Shown piece after piece: positions 5,065-41,356 of a DNA stretch of 53,053 bases. The stretch covers positions 1-53,053 of the forward strand of contig MHJG01000005.1 in assembly GCA_001818695.1 (NCBI GenBank), in the 5' to 3' direction. The stretch is from Candidatus Harrisonbacteria bacterium RIFCSPHIGHO2_02_FULL_42_16 (lineage in GTDB: Bacteria; Patescibacteriota; Minisyncoccia; UBA6257; 02-FULL-45-10c). A program made the translations under genes and the position numbers. The notes beneath the pieces were generated by a model. The model made no database searches, was not told where the DNA came from, and was given only the letters and a program-made list of their open reading frames with translations. Position 1 is the first letter of the stretch. Every line of letters begins with the position of its first letter.

Positions 5065-8000
5065 ATGAGTAAAAAATTAATAAATAAAATTTCAACAACC
5101 GTAATTTCCGTAGCCACGGTTGTTTCTCTTTCCGGCGCAGGAGCTTTGCTCCCAATGGCTGCTCACGGAGCAACCTTGCAGGAGCAAATTACGGCCCTGT
5201 TAGCCCAAGTAGCGGCTTTGCAAGCTCAATTAACAGCAGGAACTTCTACTTCCGGCTCTGCTTCGGCTTCTTTAACATCTTCCGGGGACCTCGCCCTCGG
5301 CAGTAAAGGAGCGGCAGTAAAGGAATTACAGATGTACTTGAATGCTAATGGCGCGCAGGTCTCTGCAAGTGGCGCCGGTTCTCCTGGCAATGAAACCGAA
5401 TATTTCGGTGGATTAACCAAATCAGCTCTTGCCAAATGGCAGGCGGCTAACGGAGTTTCTCCAGCGGCCGGATATTTTGGTCCAAAGACACGGGCGAAAA
5501 TGGCTTCTATGGGCGGAACTACTACTACAACTACCACCACAACAACGACAACTGGCGGCACAACTCCAGCTCCGGCTCCGGTAGTTCCGGCAGGTACTGG
5601 TTTGACTGTGACTTTAGCTCCGGATCAGCCAGCTCCAGCTTTAGCTCCGTATAATGCAACCAGAATTCCTTTCACTAAAATTCAATTAACTGCCTCCGCC
5701 GATGGCGCAGTAACAGTTAGTTCAATCGAAGTGCAAAGAACCGGTTTGTCTGAAGATGCCGGCTTGGCCGGTTTGGTGCTTTTGGATGAAAATGGAATTC
5801 AGCTTGGTTTAGAAAAAACCCTGAATTCCGACCACAAAGCGGTTCTTGGCGAAACGTTAACAGTGGCGGCTGGCACAACCAGAACTCTTACTGTTGCGGG
5901 TCGCAGAGCGGCTGCCGGTTCTCGTGGCGGTCAAACCGTTTCTTTACCGGTTACCAAAGTTAATACTTCGGCCACTGTTTATGGAACTTTCCCATTTACT
6001 GGAACTACCCATACAATAAACGAAACCTTGACTGTTGGAACATTAGTTAGCCCGACAGCTGGTCCGTTAGATCCAGGAGGATCTCAGACCAAGGAAGTTG
6101 GTACCAAAGCGTACACTTTTTCTTCTGTTCGGGTAACTGCCGGTTCTGCGGAAAAAGTTATTTTGAAATCCATTCGATGGAACCAGACCGGTTCTGCCGG
6201 AACCGCTGATTTGGAGAATGTGAAGACCTATGTTGACGGCACTGCGTATGATACGGTTGTCAGCGCGGACGGCAAATTCTTTACCTCCACTTTCGGCGCG
6301 GGTATTCTTATTGATAAAGGATTCAATAAAGAAATGTCCATTAAAGGCGATATTAAGGGCGGATCCGCTCGAACTATTGACTTTGATGTTGATAAGCGAA
6401 GCGATGTCTATGCGGTAGGCGAAACCTATGGTTATGGAATTTTGACTGCTGATGGAACCAATTCTACCGGTTCTGACGACGGTCTTTTCCACAGCACTAA
6501 TCCGTGGTTTGACGCTTATCAGGTGTTGGTTTCCGCTGGTACGCTTACGGTTAGTAAGTGGAATACCGTGGGAGCTCAAAATGTGGCTATTAACTTAGCT
6601 GATCAGCCAATGGGCGGATGGTCAGTGGATGTCAAAGGAGAACCGATTTCTGTAGGCAGTTTGGTTTTCCGTTTGGGACTTGTTGACAATACCGGCACTG
6701 ACCCAGCTTTAACTGATTTGGACAATGTCAAATTAGTTGATGAAAGCGGTAAAACCTTAGCTGGTCCGGTGGATGCTTCCGGCGATGGAATTGACGGCAC
6801 AATTACCTTCACGGATACTATTACTTTTCCGATTGGCGTGACTAATATGAAGATGGTAGGTAAGTTAGCGACTAATTTCGCTAATAATGACACCGTACAG
6901 GCGTCTACCACTCCGTCCAGCCAATGGACAACTGTTACCGGTCAACAGACTGGCAACACGATTACTCCAGGCCCAACCTCTTTGGTTGCTGGAAGTTTGA
7001 TGACGGTAAAATCATCCGCGTTAGCAATCAGCGTTTCTACTGTGCCAAGGGCGCAGACAATCATCGCTGGCACTAACCAGTTTGAATTTGCCAGATATAT
7101 CTTAGACACTTCCGCTTCTGGTGAAGATTTGCGGTTAACTTCCCTGCCTTTGGAATACAATATGCCGGGTGGCGGAACCGCGTCTGACCTTACCAGCTGC
7201 TATTTGTTTGATGGCAGTACCAACTTAACCAGCGCTAATGTTAAAAATCTGACTGCTATTGCTTCTTCAAGTTCCTTTGTCTTTGATGGTACCGGTCTGA
7301 CCCTTACTAAGGGAACATCCAAGACCTTGTCATTGAAGTGCAATTTGAAAGCGGCGGCTACTGGCGGATATGCTTGGGGTTATAATGGCGTTTCTTCTCC
7401 GTCTCCAACCGGATTAACTTCCGGCCAGAGCGTGGCAACCGGTGATCTTACTGAGAATGCCAGTGTCGGACAAACAATGACTGCGGCAACTAATGGTACT
7501 TTGGCTGTTGCCTTAAATACCATAACGTCTTACCAGATTGTTACTCCCGGCACAGAGGTTACTCTCTCGGAGTTGAAATATTCCGCTACTCTGGAAGATG
7601 TAAATGTGAGGCAGGTCAGCTTAGGAATGAGAGGCGCGGCTTCTAATACTCCAGATAACTTGGTTAACCAGGAGGTTACTTTGTGGGATGGAGCGACTAA
7701 AGTCGGTACCGCTTCTTTTTCCAGCGGCGATCACGCTACTGGAACCCTTAGCGGTTTCGTAGTTCCGAAAGACGGATCCAAGGTCTTGACCGTAAAAGCC
7801 AAGATCGCGGGAATTTCCGTGTCTGAAGCTATGAACCGATCGGGAGAATTCCCGAAGGTTGATTATGACGGCGGCGGCGGCTTGACTTCCAATTATGGAA
7901 TCGGCGTGTCCTCCGGCCAGACCGTCACTCCAACTTCCGGAGTTACTAGTTCTACCGGCGTTCGGATTATGAAATCTTATCCGACCTTTGAGAAAGTCGA

Positions 8001-10509: not shown

Positions 10510-11574
10510 ATGGTTAATCGTATGGAAAAGAAATTATTATCAATTATTACAGTCATTTCATTTTTCGGCGCTGGTATGTTTTTGCCGATGACGGCTTATG
10601 GCGAAACTGCGGCAGAATTGCAGGTTCAAATTAACGCGTTACTTGCGCAAATTCAGGCTTTGCAAGCTCAATTAACAGCAGGAACTTCTACTTCCGGCTC
10701 TGCTTCGGCTTCTTTAACATCTTCCGGGGACCTCACCCTCGGCAGTAAAGGAGCGGCAGTAAAGGAATTACAGATGTACTTGAATGCTAATGGCGCGCAG
10801 GTCTCTGCAAGTGGCGCCGGCTCTCCTGGCAATGAAACATCTTATTTTGGTCCTGCGACCAAAGCGGCTCTTGCCAAATGGCAGGCGGCTAACGGAGTTT
10901 CTCCAGCGGCCGGATATTTTGGTCCAAAGACACGGGCGAAAATGGCTTCTATGGGCGAAACTACTCCAGCCCCGGCCCCAACTATGGGCGGAACAACTCC
11001 AGCGCCAATTCAAGAAGAAATTGTCAGCGCGCCTTCGGATGCTACCGTCACGGTTTCTCTTCCGGCCGTTCCCACGCCCTTGCCTAAATTAATTGTTAAT
11101 GATTTAAAATTTAATGTTGATTTCCCGTTCCTTCGAAATAAAAATTATTCACTCTTTAATCTTTTTGATTTTATTGTGGAAAGTAAAGAGAATATAGCAA
11201 TTACCCGCTTGCGTTTTAAGCAAACCGGAACTTTAGACGATGGCTTAATTGATAATTTTCGGCTGGTGCAGGTTATCGGCGAAAATGAAACGCTATTAGC
11301 AACTTTTACTGGAAACCCGATGAATAAGTTTATTGAATTTAATTTGGTTCCGAATGAAAATAAGCCCAATAAGGGATTGGTGGTTTCCGGAGGGCATTAT
11401 AGAGTTTTAACCACCATTACGGTTTCTTACGGCGCTATTAAGCCGACGGTCAGCTTAAGCATAGAGAAACCAGCCGATATTTCGGTATTTGATTTTAACG
11501 ATTTAGGCCGGGCGGCGGATATTCCGGCATCCATATTTCCAATTGGCGGACCAATTTATACTATTTCTATATAA
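10510..11574 (+). CDS. Secreted surface protein with PG-binding domain, paralogue of 5065..8718
   Basis: Signal peptide, coiled coil, near-identical PG_binding_1 domain, Pro/Thr linker, unrelated C-terminal beta domain. Confidence 0.87.
   Translation: MVNRMEKKLLSIITVISFFGAGMFLPMTAYGETAAELQVQINALLAQIQALQAQLTAGTSTSGSASASLTSSGDLTLGSKGAAVKELQMYLNANGAQVSASGAGSPGNETSYFGPATKAALAKWQAANGVSPAAGYFGPKTRAKMASMGETTPAPAPTMGGTTPAPIQEEIVSAPSDATVTVSLPAVPTPLPKLIVNDLKFNVDFPFLRNKNYSLFNLFDFIVESKENIAITRLRFKQTGTLDDGLIDNFRLVQVIGENETLLATFTGNPMNKFIEFNLVPNENKPNKGLVVSGGHYRVLTTITVSYGAIKPTVSLSIEKPADISVFDFNDLGRAADIPASIFPIGGPIYTISI
10656..10957 (+). repeat. Duplicated PG-binding-domain DNA, copy B
   Basis: Same length and nearly same sequence as 5214-5515. 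Confidence 0.9.
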
Positions 11575-13344: not shown

Positions 13345-14118
13345 ATGAGGAAAGTACTGGTAACAATTTTAGTTTTAGCGACGGTAGGAGGCGTATTTTG
13401 GTATATCAGAAATGATTTGAAATTCTCCCAAAATCAAGCAGCAGTTACGGACGTAAATTTCAAAGAAAACATAAGCACGTCTTTGACAGAAGCGTCGCAA
13501 AAAGAAGTTGTTAAAAATAACGCCGATTTATTAAAAGCGCAAGCATTAAAAATTATTTCCCGGCCGATTTCGGTTAAAATTCAAATTTCGGATAATTCCA
13601 GAAAGAATGCCCTTGCCAAATTAGATGAACTGATAAAATTGATTAGGAATAAGTATGATTATGTTAATGCTTGGTACGATTTGGGGGCTTATCGGATGGT
13701 TATCGGCGATTATGACGGCGCGATTGAGGCTTATCAATTTGTTCCTTTAATTAAATCCGGTGATTATATTGGCTATGTCAATTTAGGAGATATTTACAGC
13801 CATTACCTTAAAAATTATCCTTTAGCGGAAGAAAATTTTTTAAAAGCTCTTAAAAATAATTCGGCTTATGTTTCCGGATATGTTGAGCTCGCGGTTTTGT
13901 ATGAAAATTATTTTGAGAGCGGCTATCAGAAAGCCGAGGACTTGCTTTTGTCGGGTATAAGATTCAACGAAGGAAACCTTCATATAAAAATTAAATTAGC
14001 TGAATTTTATGAAAGAAATGCCAAGAAATCAGAAGCGCTGGCTCTTTTTAAAGAGGTTTTGTCTTTAGACCCAAATAATAAATTTGTTGAAGCGGAGGTA
14101 GTTAGATTATCCCAGTAA
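13345..14118 (+). CDS. Membrane-anchored TPR-repeat protein
   Basis: N-terminal TM segment; TPR-like AWYDLGAYRMVIGDYDGAIEAYQ, YVNLGDIYSHYLKNYPLAEENFLKAL; ATG at 13345. Confidence 0.75.
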   Translation: MRKVLVTILVLATVGGVFWYIRNDLKFSQNQAAVTDVNFKENISTSLTEASQKEVVKNNADLLKAQALKIISRPISVKIQISDNSRKNALAKLDELIKLIRNKYDYVNAWYDLGAYRMVIGDYDGAIEAYQFVPLIKSGDYIGYVNLGDIYSHYLKNYPLAEENFLKALKNNSAYVSGYVELAVLYENYFESGYQKAEDLLLSGIRFNEGNLHIKIKLAEFYERNAKKSEALALFKEVLSLDPNNKFVEAEVVRLSQ

Positions 14119-15250
14119 GGATGCCGTTATAAACATTTTCTGTCTTTTTAATCATAGTAGATAAGTTAAATTTTTTGGTTACTTGGTTTTTCGCCGCGAT
14201 AGCCATTTCTTTGGCTATATTTTTATTGGCCAATAGCCCATTTATTGTTTTCGTCAATAAATCCGGATTTTTTTGCGATACCATCAGGCCGTTTTCATGA
14301 TTTTTTATTACTTCCGGCATGCCGCCGGCTTCGGTCACAACGATTGGTAATTCTGCCGCCATAGCTTCAAGAAGAATATAGGGAAGGCCTTCTTTTACGG
14401 AAGACATCGTAAAAATATCAAAGGCCTTCAGGTATTGGGCATCATTGCCAGTCGGGTTAATGAGAAAAAACCTATTTTGTAATTTGTAATTTATAATTTG
14501 TAATTTATAATTTTTGTATTCCGGTCCTTCTCCGATTATAAAAAAATAAGCGTTTGGCACTAAGGCGGCCGCCAGTATTAATGTCTCATAATTTTTTTCT
14601 TTAACGAGCCTCCCAATTGATCCCACCCAGGGGTAGTTTGTTTGTAGTTTGTAGTTTGTAGTTTGTAGTTTTTTTGTTATTTCGTTTTTGGCGGTTTCTT
14701 TATCTAAAAATTTGATATTTGAATCAATGCCGTTATGGACAGTTGTTAATTTTTCTTTAGGCGCTATCCGACAGGATAACGCAAGATTATAATCGTATTC
14801 TGAAACACAGATTATTTTATCTTGGAAAAGAGCGGTAAATTTATGGAGAAAAATATAAAACCAGCGTACGGGAAAGGACAAGGCATTAGTAGGATTAAAG
14901 ACCCAGCCGTGGGCGGTGAAAATAACTTTAGGGTTTGGGGTAGGGGGTTTGGGGTATAGGGTTTTATAAATTGAAGCGGCGATGGAGCCGAGAACGCCGG
15001 CTTTGGAACTGTTGAGATGAATAATATCCGGCCGTTCTTTTTTATATACTTTTGCCAATTCCCAAATTGCCAGCCAGTCGTTCAAAAAAAACGGCCATAC
15101 TTTATTTGAAAGCCATTTTATATCCGCACCGCCGCACAAAATCTTTGTTTCAAATTGGTTTTTGTCCAGATTTTTAGCGAGATCAAAAACGTATTTTTGA
15201 GCCCCCCCAATATCTGTTTTGGTAATAACACACAGTATTTTTTTCTTCAT
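14102..15250 (-). CDS. Glycosyltransferase family 4
   Basis: TKTDIGGAQKYVFDLAK; GSIGRLVKEKNYETL; SSVKEGLPYILLEAMAAELPIVVTEAGGMPEVI. Confidence 0.9.
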   Translation of the reverse strand: MKKKILCVITKTDIGGAQKYVFDLAKNLDKNQFETKILCGGADIKWLSNKVWPFFLNDWLAIWELAKVYKKERPDIIHLNSSKAGVLGSIAASIYKTLYPKPPTPNPKVIFTAHGWVFNPTNALSFPVRWFYIFLHKFTALFQDKIICVSEYDYNLALSCRIAPKEKLTTVHNGIDSNIKFLDKETAKNEITKKLQTTNYKLQTNYPWVGSIGRLVKEKNYETLILAAALVPNAYFFIIGEGPEYKNYKLQIINYKLQNRFFLINPTGNDAQYLKAFDIFTMSSVKEGLPYILLEAMAAELPIVVTEAGGMPEVIKNHENGLMVSQKNPDLLTKTINGLLANKNIAKEMAIAAKNQVTKKFNLSTMIKKTENVYNGILTGII

Positions 15251-15287
15251 AAATTCAGTTATAGGTATAATAGTTAATATAACTCTT

Positions 15288-16472
15288 ATGATTCAAAATA
15301 GGTCTAATATTGCAGTTTTTTCTTTGGCATACGCTCCTTTTGAGGGTGGGGCGGAAATAGCCGCGAGAGAGATAATAAAGCGTCTAAACGGGCTAAATTT
15401 CACGATTTTTACCTATAAATTTGATAAAAGATGGCTTTCTGCGGAGATAGCCGATAATGCGGAAATTATTCGCGTCGGCAGAGGTAAAAACAGCAGCAAA
15501 AAATATGGCAGAATTTGGAATAAAATTTGGTATATTTTTATGGCTTGGCGCAGGGCAGAAGAAGCGCATCGACAGAAACGCTTTGAAGTAATTTGGGCGA
15601 TAATGGCGTCTTATGGAGGAATTGCGGCTTTATTTTTTAAGCTAAGCCATCCGCGGATTCCCTTGCTTCTTACAATTCAGGAAGGGGATTCGGAGGGCCA
15701 TATGGTTTTCGGCAAGTTTGGTTTGACTGGATTTTGGGGGCGGAAAATTATTAAGAACGCGGATTATATCCAGGTTATCAGCAGTTATCTTCGTAACTTT
15801 GCCGTAAAGAGAGGCGCAAAATGCCCGATTCAGGTGATTCCTAATGGCGTTGATTTAGATTTATTTAGCGCGCGCTATACGGATTTTGAAATTAAAGCCA
15901 TTAGAGAAAATTTAGGCATTAAAGATGATTATGTAATAGTGACGACTTCCCGTTTGGTGTATAAAAACGGCATTGATATTTTGATTGAAGCAGTGGCTGA
16001 ATTTAAAGAAAAACGGCCGAATATCAAATGTTTAATCATCGGTGGCGGGCCGGAATTTAAAAAGTTAAAAGTTAAAAGCGAAAAGTTAAAAGTTGATAAA
16101 AATGTTTTATTTTTGGGACAAATTTCGCATCGTGATTTGCCGATTTATTTGAAGATTTCCGATGTTTTTGTAAGGCCGTCGCGTTCCGAGGGGTTGGGCA
16201 GTTCTTTTTTGGAAGCGATGGCCGCCGAAGTGCCGGTAATAGGCACGCCGGTGGGCGGCATAGTTGATTTTTTGAAAGATAATCAGACCGGATTTTCGGT
16301 GGAAGTTGATAATGCGGAAGATTTATATAAAAAAATTGAATATGTTTTAAATAATTCTGATGTCCGAAACCGGGTAATCCATAATGCCGAGGCATTAATA
16401 AAGGAAAATTATTCTTGGGAAAATATAGCAAAGTCGTTTCGGAACATTTTTGATAAATTGATTAATACATGA
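15288..16472 (+). CDS. Glycosyltransferase family 4
   Basis: APFEGGAEIAAREI; SRLVYKNGIDILIEAV; PSRSEGLGSSFLEAMAAEVPVIGTPVGGI; ATG at 15288 preferred over 15219, which overlaps the divergent gene. Confidence 0.9.
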   Translation: MIQNRSNIAVFSLAYAPFEGGAEIAAREIIKRLNGLNFTIFTYKFDKRWLSAEIADNAEIIRVGRGKNSSKKYGRIWNKIWYIFMAWRRAEEAHRQKRFEVIWAIMASYGGIAALFFKLSHPRIPLLLTIQEGDSEGHMVFGKFGLTGFWGRKIIKNADYIQVISSYLRNFAVKRGAKCPIQVIPNGVDLDLFSARYTDFEIKAIRENLGIKDDYVIVTTSRLVYKNGIDILIEAVAEFKEKRPNIKCLIIGGGPEFKKLKVKSEKLKVDKNVLFLGQISHRDLPIYLKISDVFVRPSRSEGLGSSFLEAMAAEVPVIGTPVGGIVDFLKDNQTGFSVEVDNAEDLYKKIEYVLNNSDVRNRVIHNAEALIKENYSWENIAKSFRNIFDKLINT

Positions 16473-17587
16473 AAATTTTAATAGCTACCGGAATTTTTCC
16501 TCCGGATATCGGCGGACCGGCGTTATATAGCCAAAAATTAGCGGAAGAGTTTTCCAGCCGAGGTCTGGTGGTATCGGTAATTACTTATGGTAAAAATTTT
16601 TTTAAAAATAACGCTTATTTGATTAGTGGTGTATCTCGAAAGTGGCCATTTGGGCTTCGGCAGGCGATTTATTTTTTAAAATTATTAAATCAAGCCAGAA
16701 AATCTGATGTCATTTTGACTTTTGATTCTCTCGGCGCCGGATTGCCCGCTGTTATAGCCGGGAAATTATTCAATAAAAAAGTAGTTATCCGTTTGGGCGG
16801 CGACTTTTTATGGGAAAAATTTGTGGAATCCGGCAGGGGCAAAGTTACGATGGCAGAATTTTATCAAAAGAAGTTGCATCAAAGATTTATCATATTATTC
16901 CGTCTTATAATTTTTGCTCTGCAAAATACCGATAAAATTGTATTTACCACTGAATTTCAAAAAGGTTTATTTGTATCTTATTATGGATTAAGGCCAAATA
17001 AAGTTTTTATGATTAGAAATGTTTTTGAGAAAAAAAACGGCCAATTGCTGATTTATGATAATAATTTAAAAACCATTTTATGGGCGGGGCGATTTTTAAA
17101 ATTAAAAAATCTCGATTTATTATTGAGAGTTTTTAAGCGATTATTGGTTTATGATAAAAATTTAGTTTTGGAATTAGCGGGCGAAGGGCCGGAGCGCAGA
17201 ACGCTACAATTGACAGCTGATAATTTACAAGTGACAAATAATATAAAGTTTCTTGGTAAGTTAAGCGAATTCGAGTTAAAAAAGAAAATTATTAATTCTT
17301 ATTTTTGTATTTTGCCGTCTTTGTCAGAGGTGAGCCCCAATTTCGCTTTGCAGTGTTTGGCCTTGGAGAAGCCGATTATTCTTACCGAAGAAACCGGCCT
17401 AAAAGAGCAATTTCCCGGTTTGATGTATGCCGACCCTCAAAAAGAAGACAGTTTTTTTCAGTCCGCCTTACGATTATTAGACGCTAATTCGTATGATAAT
17501 TATCAGAAATTTATTTCCGATATCCATTATCAAAAAACTTGGCGGGATTTAGCCGATGAATATTTAAAAATTCTTGACCCTCACTAA
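16469..17587 (+). CDS. Glycosyltransferase family 4
   Basis: GIFPPDIGGPALYSQKLAEEF; LELAGEGPER; ATGA overlap with upstream gene. Confidence 0.88.
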   Translation: MKILIATGIFPPDIGGPALYSQKLAEEFSSRGLVVSVITYGKNFFKNNAYLISGVSRKWPFGLRQAIYFLKLLNQARKSDVILTFDSLGAGLPAVIAGKLFNKKVVIRLGGDFLWEKFVESGRGKVTMAEFYQKKLHQRFIILFRLIIFALQNTDKIVFTTEFQKGLFVSYYGLRPNKVFMIRNVFEKKNGQLLIYDNNLKTILWAGRFLKLKNLDLLLRVFKRLLVYDKNLVLELAGEGPERRTLQLTADNLQVTNNIKFLGKLSEFELKKKIINSYFCILPSLSEVSPNFALQCLALEKPIILTEETGLKEQFPGLMYADPQKEDSFFQSALRLLDANSYDNYQKFISDIHYQKTWRDLADEYLKILDPH

Positions 17588-19375
17588 ATACGCAGTTGCC
17601 AGCCAATTTAATTTGGAATCGGCCAAATTTTTTAATTTATCAGCTAATTTTATGGTCAGTTGCGGAAATAATCGGTCAAAGGGAAGGGGCGCCAGTTTGA
17701 AGTTGTAACCGGTGATTTCTTCTGTTTCCAGTCCGGCTTGCTCCAAAATTTCTTTAATTTGTTTTTTAGTATACTCGCGATGTTTAATCGGGTGGGTATT
17801 TTTACCGGATAAATTTTTAAATAATCCCCAAGGCAGCCCTATCGTTGCCATGAGAATTTTATTCCAGATTCGCCACGGGCTAAAATAATTTGGAAAAGAA
17901 ATAATTGCCTCCCCGTCTTTTTTTAGAACTCGTTTTATTTCTAATAACGCTTTTTCGTCGGTTTCCAAATATTCCAGCACCCCTAAGGCGGTTAGATAGT
18001 CATAATAATCGGACGGAGAATCAATATCTTCAATGTTTCCGGTTTTGGCGACTAAATCTCCATGCTTAAATCGCCTTTTTAATAACTCAATCATATTTGG
18101 CGCTATATCAATAGCGGTAATTTTGGCGCCTCTATTCAATAGTTCCTCAATTATTATTCCCGGACCGGAGCCGATGTCAAGGATTTTTTTACCCTGAACG
18201 TTTTTTAAAATATCAAGAGTCAGCCGTTTTCTTTCCCTGAATGAAAAGCCCTCGGGTGTCTCTTTGTAATATTCAGACAAATATGAGTCGGTATCTTTGT
18301 TAAAAAATTCTCCCGGATCCATTGATTTAATGCTTAGAGTATCTCTAATTAATTGCATATAGTTTCTTATTCCGCTAATAGTGATGCGAAAAAATATCAG
18401 ATTATCTGATTCGTCCAAGGAAAATCTCGGCAAGGAATAAGGGTTAAGTCCCGGCTTTATTGTTCCGGGAATAGTGGTCAGGGCGGCTATAAATCCTTCC
18501 CTTTTTAAAATTTCAATAATTTCTTCATTAAAGTCCTCTTTTTGGCCGTTGGGATAGGCAAAGATTTTTAAAATCCGGCCAATCTTCTGTTCGCATAAAT
18601 TATAGGACTCAATAATTTCCGAACTTATTTTTTCCGCGGGTAGTTTGGAAAGAATCGGATGAGATTTAGTGTGAGGGGCGAAGCCAATCCCATTTTTGGA
18701 CATTTCTTGGATTTGCTCCCAGGTTAATCCTTTATAAGGCGAAGCGCCGAAATCCCCTATTAATCTTTCCCCTAACTGATTTTCAATTTCAATCAGCAAA
18801 TTTTCTTTTTTTTCGTTATCAATATTTTTTAAATATTTTCTTATGGCGATGTCTGTTTTGCATTTATTTCTATGATTATCTGTTGGTAAATTACGGATTG
18901 CGCCGTTGATTTCCATAGTTAATGATTTTAAATTTGTATTGCTAATCGCGTATTCTAATCTATCAACCCAGAGGGGTTTTTGTTCGTCCACCAAATCAGT
19001 GGCTATGAATACCGTGGCCGGCAATTCAAGTTCTTTTAATATCGGAAAAGCGTGTTTATAGATATTTTCATATCCGTCATCAAAAGTTAGGGCCAGTATA
19101 TTTTCGGTTAACCTCTTTTTACTTTGATGAAGTTCTATAAGGGCAGACAGGGAAATAATTTTATAATTTCTTTTTAGCCAGATTAGCTGACTTTTGAAAT
19201 TTTTCGGATTGACGAATTTTTTTCTGTAATTAAAAATCCCCCCATTATTTATTTCCGGAGATATTCCATGGTAAAGAGCGATTGTGGCGGTCGGTCTGCG
19301 TATTTTCAAATAGATAATCGGAAGCCGCAAAAAATCCGCAAACCAGAACAGCATATATTTTAAAAATTTTCTCAT
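17564..19375 (-). CDS. Fusion: polysaccharide deacetylase (NodB-like) + SAM methyltransferase
   Basis: N-term ALTFDDGYENIYKHAFPILKELELPATVFI and FAYPNGQ; C-term KKILDIGSGPGIIIEELLNRGAKITAIDIAPNMIELL. Confidence 0.9.
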   Translation of the reverse strand: MRKFLKYMLFWFADFLRLPIIYLKIRRPTATIALYHGISPEINNGGIFNYRKKFVNPKNFKSQLIWLKRNYKIISLSALIELHQSKKRLTENILALTFDDGYENIYKHAFPILKELELPATVFIATDLVDEQKPLWVDRLEYAISNTNLKSLTMEINGAIRNLPTDNHRNKCKTDIAIRKYLKNIDNEKKENLLIEIENQLGERLIGDFGASPYKGLTWEQIQEMSKNGIGFAPHTKSHPILSKLPAEKISSEIIESYNLCEQKIGRILKIFAYPNGQKEDFNEEIIEILKREGFIAALTTIPGTIKPGLNPYSLPRFSLDESDNLIFFRITISGIRNYMQLIRDTLSIKSMDPGEFFNKDTDSYLSEYYKETPEGFSFRERKRLTLDILKNVQGKKILDIGSGPGIIIEELLNRGAKITAIDIAPNMIELLKRRFKHGDLVAKTGNIEDIDSPSDYYDYLTALGVLEYLETDEKALLEIKRVLKKDGEAIISFPNYFSPWRIWNKILMATIGLPWGLFKNLSGKNTHPIKHREYTKKQIKEILEQAGLETEEITGYNFKLAPLPFDRLFPQLTIKLADKLKNLADSKLNWLATAYLVRVKNF

Positions 19376-19398
19376 TTGTTAGATACTATTAAATATAG

Positions 19399-20616
19399 AT
19401 GTCAATTATTATGAAAAATTATACCAATGAAACGGCTTGGGGTCAAAATATTAATATCCTTATTATTGGCACGGACGACGGTATTTTTAAATCCAATTCC
19501 GCCGTGCGAAAAAGGATTGTTGATTATGCCGCGCATTTTAAATCTTTTTATGTTATTTCCAAGACCCGCGATAAAGTATTGAGTGAAGATTTTGAAAGTA
19601 AGGCATTTTTTTACCCCGCATATTCATCGTCGTTTTTTTCTTTTATCAGGTCTTCTTATTTATTAGGTTCGGCTATTTTGGGTAAGGAAGGAAATTGGGT
19701 GATTAGCGTTGAAAATCCTTTTGAAACTGCATTGGTTGGCTGGCTGCTTAGCCGGAGATATAAATTTCCATTACAAATTCAGGTTCATACTGATATATTC
19801 AGCAATTATTTTTGGAAAGAGTCACTAAAAAATAAAGTTCGAGTTTTATTAGCGAAATTTTTATTGCCCCGAGCGGACGGTGTTCGCGTTGTTTCAGAGC
19901 GTATAAAACAATCTTTAATTACTCAATTACCTAATTACCAATTACTCCCCCTACGAGGGATCTCCCAAAGGGAGACAATTATTGTTTTACCAATTTTCGT
20001 TGATGTTAAAAAAATTCAATCAGCGCCTATAAAAACCGACTTGCATCAAAAATATCCTGATTACGATTTTATAATTTTAATGGCTTCCCGGCTGACTCGC
20101 GAGAAGAACATCGGAATTGCCATTGAAGCGATGAAGGAAATTCTAAAAAGAAAAAATCTAAACCCTAAACCCTCTACCTTAAACCCTCTATTATTGATTG
20201 TCGGCGATGGACCAGAGGGGCAGAAACTAGAATCTAGAATTCAGAATCTAGAATTAAGCACTAATATTAAAATAGAAAATTGGACAGACGATTTAATTTC
20301 TTATTATAAAACCGCGGATTTATTTTTATTGACTTCAAATTATGAGGGATATGGGCGTACCGTTGTAGAAGCAATGTCGGCCGGCTTGCCGGTAGTTATG
20401 ACGGATGTTGGGATAGCGGGAGAGCTTTTAATTGATGATTTGGATGGCAGAGTAGTTCCAGTAGGAAGTGAAAAAGCGCTTGCGGCGGCGATAATGGAAT
20501 TAAAAGAAAATTTCGCAAAAAAAGAAGAATTTAAGCAAAATAACTTGAAACTGCTGGAAAAATGGCCAACTAAGCAAGAATATTTGGAGAAATATAAACG
20601 ATCTCTTGAATTATAA
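19399..20616 (+). CDS. Glycosyltransferase family 4
   Basis: MASRLTREKNIGIAIEAM; IVGDGPEG; TSNYEGYGRTVVEAMSAGLPVVMTDVGIAGELL. Confidence 0.9.
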   Translation: MSIIMKNYTNETAWGQNINILIIGTDDGIFKSNSAVRKRIVDYAAHFKSFYVISKTRDKVLSEDFESKAFFYPAYSSSFFSFIRSSYLLGSAILGKEGNWVISVENPFETALVGWLLSRRYKFPLQIQVHTDIFSNYFWKESLKNKVRVLLAKFLLPRADGVRVVSERIKQSLITQLPNYQLLPLRGISQRETIIVLPIFVDVKKIQSAPIKTDLHQKYPDYDFIILMASRLTREKNIGIAIEAMKEILKRKNLNPKPSTLNPLLLIVGDGPEGQKLESRIQNLELSTNIKIENWTDDLISYYKTADLFLLTSNYEGYGRTVVEAMSAGLPVVMTDVGIAGELLIDDLDGRVVPVGSEKALAAAIMELKENFAKKEEFKQNNLKLLEKWPTKQEYLEKYKRSLEL

Positions 20617-21496: not shown

Positions 21497-21787
21497 ATGG
21501 CTGTCGTAGAAGCAATGGCGGCTGGTTTGCCGGTGATTATGACTGACGTTGGGTTGGCAGGAGAGCTTTTAATTGATGATTTGGATGGCAGAGTAGTTCC
21601 AGTAGGAAGTGAAAAGGCGCTTGCGGCGGCGATAATGGAATTAAAAGAAAATTCCGTTAAAAGGGAAGAATTTAAGCAAAATAACTTGAAACTGCTGGAA
21701 AAATGGCCGACTAAACAAGAGTATTTGGATAAGTATAGAAATTCTTTAATAACGATTGTTCAAACTATGAAATCTTATGTGATTTGA
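21497..21787 (+). pseudogene. Duplicated 3' fragment of GT4 gene (remnant)
   Basis: VVEAMAAGLPVIMTDVGLAGELLIDDLDGRVVPVGSEKALAAAIMELKEN...LLEKWPTKQEYL matches the C-terminus of 19399..20616; no catalytic N-domain. Confidence 0.85.
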
Positions 21788-22260: not shown

Positions 22261-23391
22261 TGCATAACCTCAGATACATTCTGGACTCTATGAAGCCTTA
22301 GCTTTATGGAGTTTTTTAATCGAATTCACTCAAAATATACCGGCATCAGAGGGTTTATCACCGTATACAATGACGCGATACAATATGGGTATATGATTAC
22401 CCAACAAGCGCAGGAGAAGGCGCGTATCTTGGTCTTTTGGGAAAAGCACGGCCTTCAAGCGACCCTCGATGCTTTTCCCGTCAAAAGGTCGACACTTTAC
22501 ACCTGGAAACAGACCTGGATTGCGGGAGGGAAAAAGCTTGAAGCGTTGAACCCCAAGTCCCGACAACCCAAGACGAAACGCAAGCGATTATGGCCTGCCC
22601 CCATCATCGCGGAAATTCAACGACTCCGGAGTCGCGAAGTCCATCCGAATCTTGGGGAAAGGAAGCTATCGAAAGAGCTTGCCGTGTTTTGCGAGGCACG
22701 CAACCTGCGTTGTCCAAAGCCCGCAACAATTGGGCGTCTGATCGCCGACCTCGGCGGTCTTCGCGCGGCGCCGGTCAAGGTGTCGCATTTTGGCAAAATC
22801 AAAAAGGTTAATCGCCGCGCCGTCCTCAGAAAACCTAAACAATTCAAGGCAACGCATCCCGGCCACTGTGTGGCATTTGATACGATTGAGATCTTTATTC
22901 GCGGTATGCGTCGCTATGTCATCACTGCCACCGACCTATATGGGCGTATGAGCTTTGCATGGGGAACGGCGTCGCACGCCTCGCATGCGGCGCAAGAGTT
23001 CTTTGAGAGGTGCGAGCGCGTCCTCCCCATGCCGATGGAGTACGTCTTAACCGACAATGGTTCAGAATTCAAGAAAGATTTTGACATTGCGCTCCGGAAC
23101 GCTCATCTCACGCACTATCATACGTATCCCAAGACACCCAAGATGAATGCTCATGCGGAACGATTCAACCGAACGATTCAAGAAGAGTTTGTGGACTTCA
23201 ATTATGAACTACTTGCGACCGATATTGATGCATTTAACCGCAAGCTCATGGATTGGCTCATCTGGTACAATACCGAGCGTGTGCATTACGCATTCAACAA
23301 TCAATTGTCCCCAGCGCAATATCTGTTATCCTATTATCAACAATCGTCGAGACAAACTGCTTCCGAGTCCAGAGTATGGTGCGGTTATACA
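22261..23391 (+). mobile_element. IS481-like insertion sequence
   Basis: Imperfect ~27-bp TIRs: left TGCATAACCTCAGATACATTCTGGACTC; right (rc) TGTATAACCGCACCATACTCTGGACTC; 5-bp TSD AATAA at 22256-22260 and 23392-23396; GC visibly above flanks. Confidence 0.88.
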
Positions 23392-23400
23392 AATAATTGA
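22393..23400 (+). CDS. Transposase, HTH + DDE integrase core (IS481-like)
   Basis: rve motifs: VAFDTIEIF..., YVLTDNGSEFKKDF, HYHTYPKTPKMNAHAERFNRTIQEEF, WYNTERVHYAFNNQLSPAQYL; MITQQAQEKARI start preferred. Confidence 0.88.
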   Translation: MITQQAQEKARILVFWEKHGLQATLDAFPVKRSTLYTWKQTWIAGGKKLEALNPKSRQPKTKRKRLWPAPIIAEIQRLRSREVHPNLGERKLSKELAVFCEARNLRCPKPATIGRLIADLGGLRAAPVKVSHFGKIKKVNRRAVLRKPKQFKATHPGHCVAFDTIEIFIRGMRRYVITATDLYGRMSFAWGTASHASHAAQEFFERCERVLPMPMEYVLTDNGSEFKKDFDIALRNAHLTHYHTYPKTPKMNAHAERFNRTIQEEFVDFNYELLATDIDAFNRKLMDWLIWYNTERVHYAFNNQLSPAQYLLSYYQQSSRQTASESRVWCGYTNN

Positions 23401-28692: not shown

Positions 28693-28734
28693 TCAAATGT
28701 AAAGCGTCAAGCGTCAAATGTTAAATGTTTTATT

Positions 28735-40260: not shown

Positions 40261-41356
40261 AGCTAAAAAACTTTGTTTTATTATACCCGAATATTATTCT
40301 TCAGCGGCTACCCACTTTAATTATTTATATAAGCTGATTTCTTTATTAGAGAAAGAGACGGATATTTTTTTAATTGTAGAGCGTGGCGATAATCCGGATT
40401 TTTTAAAGAAAGGATATTTTTACGTTCAAAAGTTTAGAATTTTGCCGCTAAGATTCATAGAGGATTTTTTAATACTTCTTTATGTTAGATTGCTTGGATA
40501 TCAAGATTTTTACGTTCATTACTCATTTCTTTCCGCATTTAATGCTTCTCTGATTATAAAATTTCTTGGCGGTCGGACTTTTTATTGGAATTGCGGCCTT
40601 CCCTGGCTTTATAAGCGCGGTTTAATCCGTAAAACCTTCGAACTTTTAACTTATAAATTTATTACTTATTTAGTGACCGGAACGGAGAATTTAAAAAAGG
40701 AATACGCTCTTCATTGCCGTATGCCGCTGTCGCGGATCAAGGCGATGCCTAACTGGATAAATCTGTCTGACTTTCGGCCGGATTCCGGGCGGATGCCGGG
40801 CCTTAAAAAGGAGTTAAACCTTTCTGCGAGAAACAAGGTTTTATTATTTGTACACCGGCTTTCCAAAAGGAAAGGGGCGCATTATCTGCCAGAAATTTTA
40901 AAAAGTTTGTCCGAAGAAAACGTGGTTTTGCTGATTATCGGGGATGGGCCGGAGCGTCCGGAAATAGAATCTAGAATCAATAATTACGGGTTATCGGCTC
41001 GGGCAAGATTTTTGGGCCGGGTGCCGAATAAAGATATCCGGAATTATTTTGGAATCGCCGATATCTTTATTATGCCGTCGGAAGAGGAGGGATTCCCGCA
41101 CGTGCTTTTAGAGTCAATGGCGGCAGCGGTTCCCTTTGTAGCTTTTAATGTCGGCGGAGTCGGAGAAATAACGCCACCGGAATTTTCTGAATATTTGGCA
41201 GCCGGAGGCAATCTTGAGATTTTTGTTGAAAAGGTTAAAAAATTATTATATATTGACTCGAAATATTTGGAGATTTTAAAACAAAGTGAATTAAAATGGG
41301 TGCGGCAATTTGATATAAAATTTGCCGTTGTAAAATTCAACAAATTGTTAAATTAA
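40247..41356 (+). CDS. Glycosyltransferase family 4
   Basis: [61 protein letters not shown]. Confidence 0.9.

Follow-up and report, generated by a model that had tools for sequence, protein, structure and literature searches.

Heptanucleotide tandem arrays within GT4 glycosyltransferase genes and other conserved genes of a Patescibacteria genome and its relatives

The DNA analysed here, referred to as the window, is a stretch of 53,053 nt from contig MHJG01000005.1 and belongs to the 754-kb draft genome of Candidatus Harrisonbacteria bacterium RIFCSPHIGHO2_02_FULL_42_16, a member of the Patescibacteria (Candidate Phyla Radiation, CPR). It carries a set of GT4 glycosyltransferase genes, designated below by their first coordinate, in which tandem arrays of seven-nucleotide words (heptamers) lie within open reading frames (ORFs). 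The host proteins belong to GT4 by a PF00534 (Glycos_transf_1) score above the cut-off and a GT-B fold. The closest named relatives of the 15288 protein are found in a Candidatus Paceibacter metagenome-assembled genome (69% identity) and in Parcubacteria bacterium Athens0714_26 (66%), both of them Parcubacteria/Paceibacteria assemblies. The genes and arrays concerned are the following.

14102..15250, minus strand: GT4 glycosyltransferase gene with three arrays; PF00534 119.9 bits; best PDB fold match BshA (3mbo), template-modelling (TM) score 0.83
14473..14513, minus strand: heptamer array TTTGTAA/TTTATAA, post-GxGPE helix of the 14102 GT4, residues 246-260 (KNYKLQIINYKLQNR); model helix 245-254, predicted local distance difference test (pLDDT) of the block 93-95
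14640..14671, minus strand: perfect heptamer array GTTTGTA, 4.6 copies, 14102 GT4 residues 194-204, lying at the end of helix 184-196 and in the loop preceding strand 208-212; other words in orthologues
14930..14964, minus strand: imperfect heptamer array (GGGTTTG/GGGTATA family), 14102 GT4 residues 96-107; loop joining helix 83-98 to strand 108-113
15288..16472, plus strand: GT4 glycosyltransferase gene with one array; PF00534 161.6 bits
16060..16094, plus strand: heptamer array AAAAGTT x5 after GxGPE of the 15288 GT4, residues 258-269 (KKLKVKSEKLKV)
19399..20616, plus strand: GT4 glycosyltransferase gene with three arrays; PF00534 125.2 bits
19916..19947, plus strand: imperfect heptamer/octamer array (AATTACC/AATTACTC), 19399 GT4 residues 173-183
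20158..20190, plus strand: heptamer array CTAAACC/ACCCTCT, 19399 GT4 residues 254-264, immediately ahead of the GxGPE strand
20222..20255, plus strand: heptamer array AGAATCT, post-GxGPE helix of the 19399 GT4, residues 275-286; CAG stands where the word would give TAG
28699..28729, no strand assigned: intergenic heptamer array AAGCGTC/AAATGTT between two genes
40966..40985, plus strand: short heptamer remnant of borderline strength (AGAATCTAGAATC...) following GxGPE in the 40247 GT4; same word as 20222-20255

An initial annotation of the window had described low-complexity DNA words in the helix that follows the GxGPE strand of five GT4 genes. The repeat sequences it quoted are present where it placed them, and the words are 7-nt tandem repeats; this unique 7-nt period is the key property that it overlooked. 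A scan of the window for exact runs gave six hits at a lag of 7 nt, where a third-order Markov shuffle predicts 0.7, and nine at lag 14, where it predicts 0.5, with the remaining lags at about background. Individual helices were assessed by the best lag-7 segment in the 57 nt after GxGPE, using synonymous recoding and residue shuffling plus recoding as nulls; the shuffle nulls of this work ignore codon structure save where synonymous recoding was used. The array is strong in 14102 (score 24.0; P=0.0016 and 0.0002 for the two nulls in that order), 15288 (18.0; P=0.0022 and 0.0002) and 19399 (13.5; P=0.0068 and 0.0002), and for these three genes the two nulls rule out chance low complexity. The 40247 gene is borderline (8.0; P=0.010 and 0.0012). 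The fifth helix, that of 16469, is indistinguishable from chance (4.0; P=0.42 and 0.15), which is accepted as its explanation, and the remaining three GT4s of the window have no convincing array after GxGPE.

The AlphaFold model of the 14102 protein (mean pLDDT 83) places its arrays at helix 83-98/loop/strand 108, helix 184-196/loop/strand 208 and helix 245-254/loop/strand 261; as modelled, all three are alpha-helix-to-beta-strand connectors. The site of the 14930-14964 array holds CTACGAC x4 in the relatives' loci L067 and L072. Within the 16060-16094 array, the unit that in frame would give TAA reads GCGAAAA instead.

The same period stands out in the rest of the genome, which was sampled as stretches amounting to 315 kb, with segment scoring that allowed mismatches and crude gene calls (longest ORFs). 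These stretches hold 21 period-7 arrays, against 0-7 at the other periods from 4 to 13 (harmonics aside); 20 of the 21 lie in ORFs and one is intergenic. Array density in this genome is 34 per 100 kb in GT4 genes and 6.1 in other coding DNA. The excess of period 7 recurs in samples from further families, orders and classes of the phylum, and 50 kb of Escherichia coli show none. In an unbiased sample of relatives, nine arrays are coding and nine intergenic, with densities of 3.5 and 27.9 per 100 kb, respectively; in the genome of the window, intergenic DNA is not the denser. Only the 315-kb sample, the sample of relatives and the phylum samples are unbiased, the GT4 and leuS loci discussed below having been picked for visible arrays, so that their densities are not genome averages. 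In a held-out set of 400 kb, taken in part from array-rich genomes, period-7 arrays numbered 35, and no other non-harmonic period exceeded 6. The word pattern AATTCCA at about three units, sought phylum-wide, was met in only 3 of 116 genomes, a probe of this type being too narrow.

There are 69 different words among 112 distinct arrays. A typical array has 4-5 units and spans about 29-36 nt, with a thin tail of longer ones; perfect arrays in the first data showed a sharp length peak at 31-32 nt, and all these length statistics come from modest numbers. One array of 96 nt (13-14 units), near an RNase P RNA gene (L196:2120-2216), goes far beyond the usual 29-36 nt. At another place (L132:4530-4610 and L134:4550-4640), two adjacent period-7 arrays lie in opposite orientation (TAGTATCTTGTATCT / AGATACAAGATACTA) and resemble inverted copies that could pair as a hairpin. 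The second of them is shared without change over 40+ nt by two congeners with flanks of 88% identity, which sets it apart from the other arrays there.

The GT4 family shows how the arrays are distributed. Among 90 GxGP-bearing GT4s from this genome and 40 relatives, a score of 10 in the 60 nt after the motif was reached at lag 7 in 27, at lag 14 in 18, at lag 21 in 12 and at every other lag in 0-1. Period-7 arrays occupy 26 of 89 GT4 helices of the family and order, against 2.2 expected from synonymous recoding; a few rows of this set are near-duplicates of one gene from overlapping loci, and the statistics ignore the kinship of GT4s. Along 149 whole GT4 ORFs, 80 lag-7 segments were found against 2-8 at other non-harmonic lags, with array positions clustering about -200, -150, -80, -45, -15 and +5 to +15 residues relative to the motif. 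The helix singled out by the initial annotation is the commonest array site in GT4s, but it is one of about six such sites in them, and arrays are also present in other conserved genes and one RNase P RNA. Its proposal that the words substitute for the native helix at the usual length is well founded: the following strand lies 17 residues from the E of GxGPE in 22 of the 26 array helices, as in 47 of 62 helices without an array. Arrays usually replace native sequence rather than lengthen it.

Orthologues of 14102 from 16 relatives (48-71% identical) align cleanly, and many carry arrays at the three sites with differing words between conserved flanks. At the -45 site, for instance, the word is AAACTAC in the window, CGACTTA in L067, AAATTCC in L069 and CAAAGCT in L072. 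Units within one helix array agree with each other at lag 7 (identity 0.73, against 0.49 and 0.42 for the lag-6 and lag-8 controls), whereas helix arrays compared between species agree at 0.62, not above nearby flanks (0.65 and 0.72). Descent from one ancestral word is insufficient, as the annotation had argued, because orthologues hold differing words at the same site. Its further statement that each gene uses a different word goes too far, since AAAAGTT and AATCTAG are each met in more than one gene and inheritance with a drifting word is seen for some arrays, such as the TTTTGAC-type array at -80 in G007 and G012, two genomes of one genus. Repeats at the helix exceed the codon background, and array words reappear at other places in the genome: dnaX and cca both contain AAAAGTT, a nifS-like gene has AAACCCT, and the 19399 and 40247 genes share AATCTAG. 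The opposite on either count is what the annotation had named as speaking against it.

The surviving arrays carry marks of selection on phase, stops and length. In translation, a tandem 7-nt word repeats every 7 residues, so that one phase restores hydrophobic residues at +4, +11 and +13, which makes the helix after GxGPE an unusually good acceptor. When the GT4 helix words were tried in all seven phases, hydrophobics at these positions were kept at 0.70 in the actual phase and 0.22 in the other six, and for 18 of 23 words the best phase is the actual one. Of 115 coding arrays, 51 would have a stop in frame if the word were perfect, and mismatches per nt amount to 0.35 at the would-be stop codons against 0.06 in the rest of the arrays. 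The open frame itself forces at least one change per stop, and the informative part is the scarcity of other changes. As for length, a gain of plain 7-nt units breaks the frame unless three arrive together.

A phenomenon specific to GT4s is ruled out by arrays in leuS, tyrS, cca, dnaX, rsmA, rsmH, pheS and argS. The array-bearing ORFs of the genome include what we take, by their sequences, to be DnaX, a NifS-like cysteine desulfurase, TsaE, RsmA, leucyl-tRNA synthetase, RsmH, the CCA-adding enzyme and tyrosyl-tRNA synthetase; in relatives, they presumably encode a PolX-like protein, ArgRS and PheRS alpha. The NifS-like gene (L016:4158-5516, on contig C6 of the same genome) holds four separate heptamer arrays in a single open frame.

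The leucyl-tRNA synthetase gene was followed through 29 orthologues, which carry 19 arrays against at most 4 at other lags. These lie in six common alignment regions, with words differing between orthologues, and at most sites the array-bearing orthologues have the modal native length. The congeners G028 and G068, whose leuS genes share 79% nucleotide identity, have native sequence in one and an array in the other at several places, with length changes of 0, +12 and +18 nt that are in frame and never a nonzero multiple of 7; an array farther downstream has changed its word at an unchanged place. In two genomes of one genus, G041 and G060, leuS (L149 and L150) reads through 16-17 TGA codons, and these two genomes appear to use TGA for an amino acid.

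Arrays also occur in an RNA gene. In G022 (L199), the RNase P RNA (RF00010, 1501-1886) contains an array at 1604-1643, and the same RNA of G020 (L207) has a shorter period-7 tract. The Rfam alignment puts the G022 tract in a peripheral insertion, which we read as the P16/P17 region; RNase P insertions of the short tandemly repeated repetitive (STRR) sequences of cyanobacteria lie in P12. Because an array stands in an RNA, protein selection is not the source of the arrays.

Two further observations concern other parts of the window. A 96-aa open frame (window 21497-21685), near an integrase-like gene (22306-23400), matches only the C-terminal part of Glycos_transf_1 and is likely a GT4 gene remnant. 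An identical 27-nt period-14 repeat (CGGCAGTAAAGGAG x2) occurs at 5298-5324 and 10740-10766, in two paralogous N-terminal domains, which suggests that duplication or conversion has recently taken place between the 5065 and 10510 genes.

To our knowledge, the heptanucleotide is the commonest long simple repeat in many bacterial genomes, and the reason for the length 7 is not established. The arrays described here are of this known kind, the bacterial heptanucleotide tandem repeats, with STRR sequences among them. STRR heptamers of heterocystous cyanobacteria, which occur also inside RNase P RNA (Vioque 1997, cited in PMC2858038; PMC2670836), are alike in their degenerate 7-bp tandem units, several words per genome, unknown function and tolerance in an RNA gene. 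They are mainly found between genes, whereas most arrays here lie within protein genes, in frame and at recurrent structural sites, and the host is not a heterocystous cyanobacterium but a member of the Parcubacteria/Paceibacteria. For the heptanucleotide long simple sequence repeats (SSRs) of bacteria, published accounts describe a dominance of unit length 7, a preference for 4 units in Xanthomonas and Nostoc (Mrazek 2007 via PMC4679880; Rehm 2015, PMC4692102) and an origin by polymerase slippage linked to a polymerase contact over 7 nt (Mrazek 2007, from PMC4679880). The dominance of 7 and several degenerate words per genome are found here too, but not the mostly intergenic position and under-representation in coding DNA of STRRs and long SSRs, since this genome has 20 coding arrays against 1 intergenic. 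In-gene heptamers also run counter to the reports that repeats in coding regions are mainly multiples of three (PMC4679880) and that G-rich heptamers are under-represented in coding DNA (PMC4692102). Since most words here have no G tracts, G-quadruplex formation cannot explain the size of 4-5 units.

Other repeats resemble the arrays in part. The TAACTGA heptamers of Beggiatoaceae sometimes extend into reading frames, but they are a single fixed word, placed mostly upstream of start codons and at protein ends (PMC4679880), whereas many words lie within folded domains here. Rickettsia palindromic elements (Ogata 2000, reviewed in PMC2229807) are likewise repetitive DNA tolerated in frame in many conserved proteins; they are palindromic insertions of 105-146 bp, in contrast to tandem words of 29-36 nt that have no shared sequence and mostly replace native residues. 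Tandem repeats of Borgs also arise independently, turn over fast, are A-rich and occur in genes and between them, but those within genes encode perfect, mostly disordered amino-acid repeats (PMC9879509), unlike the 7-nt units here, which keep structured helices. Dense in-frame heptamer arrays at recurrent structural sites of conserved proteins, with in-place turnover of the word, were not found in the open-licence literature searched, including for CPR coding genes.

The heptamer tracts, being of the STRR/long-SSR kind, are probably written by a DNA-level process at many sites of Patescibacteria genomes, with selection leaving survivors at tolerant sites. Tracts of 4-5 units would arise by local repeated copying, through polymerase misalignment or filler synthesis in replication or repair, and would later be rewritten by the same process. 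Most placements within genes would presumably be lethal; the survivors would be those that replaced native sequence with the frame kept, lost any stop in frame and fell in a surface segment where the fold tolerates them, nearly neutral for enzyme function. In-place copying from an adjacent unit, by misalignment followed by realignment, could bring about replacement without frame loss, as could the synthesis of filler at a break. Since a perfect tract with a stop could not stand in a working gene, words containing a stop would have spread stepwise or from a stop-free starting word such as GTCAAAA. The copying step, as well as the reason for a unit of seven, is what we infer.

Several points weigh against this origin. 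The generating enzyme or event was not observed, and the in-frame stop that a perfect array has in 44% of coding arrays excludes perfect writing in one step there. Ordinary slippage without MutS should favour units of 1-4 nt, yet lags 4-6 are hardly raised. Array density is uneven, several genomes of the order having none in the 20-40 kb sampled, and the 31-32-nt length peak, predicted beforehand, recurred in the held-out data only as a broader 29-36-nt class (six arrays). Plain slippage fits poorly for its part: lengths cluster at about 29-36 nt and are usually kept, and shorter units are scarcely enriched although a MutS_V search of 61 genomes of the order gave no hit (the domain is present in 11 of 14 control genomes). 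Absent mismatch repair was rejected as the cause, because it cannot explain period 7 and array-poor genomes lack MutS_V as well. A further-reaching version, which we hold only tentatively and consider doubtful, is that an undescribed DNA-synthesis or repair activity of Patescibacteria fills or overwrites short stretches with self-copied 7-nt words, 4-5 units at a time and with no net length change, so that the heptamer arrays would provide conserved proteins with a lasting supply of substitute alpha-helices and loops.

Arrays scattered through genes and gaps, with a typical size of about 29-36 nt and some words recurring within a genome, might instead be mobile elements made beforehand, a kind of very small insertion element that moves into genes or intergenic DNA and is then trimmed by selection. 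Such elements are an unlikely source, since 69 words in 112 arrays leave them without a common sequence and native sequence is mostly replaced at equal length. It is also quite improbable that the arrays are contingency or diversification sites, where gain and loss of units would switch or diversify glycosyltransferases that build surface polysaccharide. The higher array density of GT4 genes in this genome and the differing words of orthologues agree with that idea, but housekeeping genes carry arrays too; by comparison with phase variation, the arrays lie mid-gene with frames intact and length conserved, and a switch by plus or minus 7 nt was not seen.

Selection at the protein level for a heptad amphipathic helix, the DNA period being a by-product of AT-rich codons, is a very poor candidate. 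The native helix does already have hydrophobics at +4, +11 and +13, and the residues are rich in K, L, N and E, but synonymous recoding yields 2.2 arrays instead of 26, the predicted lag is 21 whereas lag 7 is strongest, and arrays occur also in Pro-rich loops, intergenic DNA and RNase P RNA. Hardly any weight can be given to an artefact of assembly or to low complexity arisen by chance. The genomes of the named relatives were assembled from metagenomes, but the same pattern appears across many independent assemblies, period 7 alone is enriched, frames are open and orthologous sites coincide. Writing at the DNA level followed by selection at tolerant sites is the explanation we prefer.

As 7 is not divisible by 3, genes are expected to be free of heptamers. 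In the lineage studied here, folded domains of essential enzymes tolerate them throughout, and do so at matching structural positions across many species, with the word changing and length and frame constant. The origin of heptamer repeats thereby becomes testable through the comparison of orthologues, and G-quadruplex formation is weakened as a general reason for the preference for 4 units. Alignments and trees of CPR proteins call for caution, as they include repeat-derived blocks that are not inherited residue by residue. The arrays would also represent a route whereby non-triplet DNA repeats supply new helices and loops.

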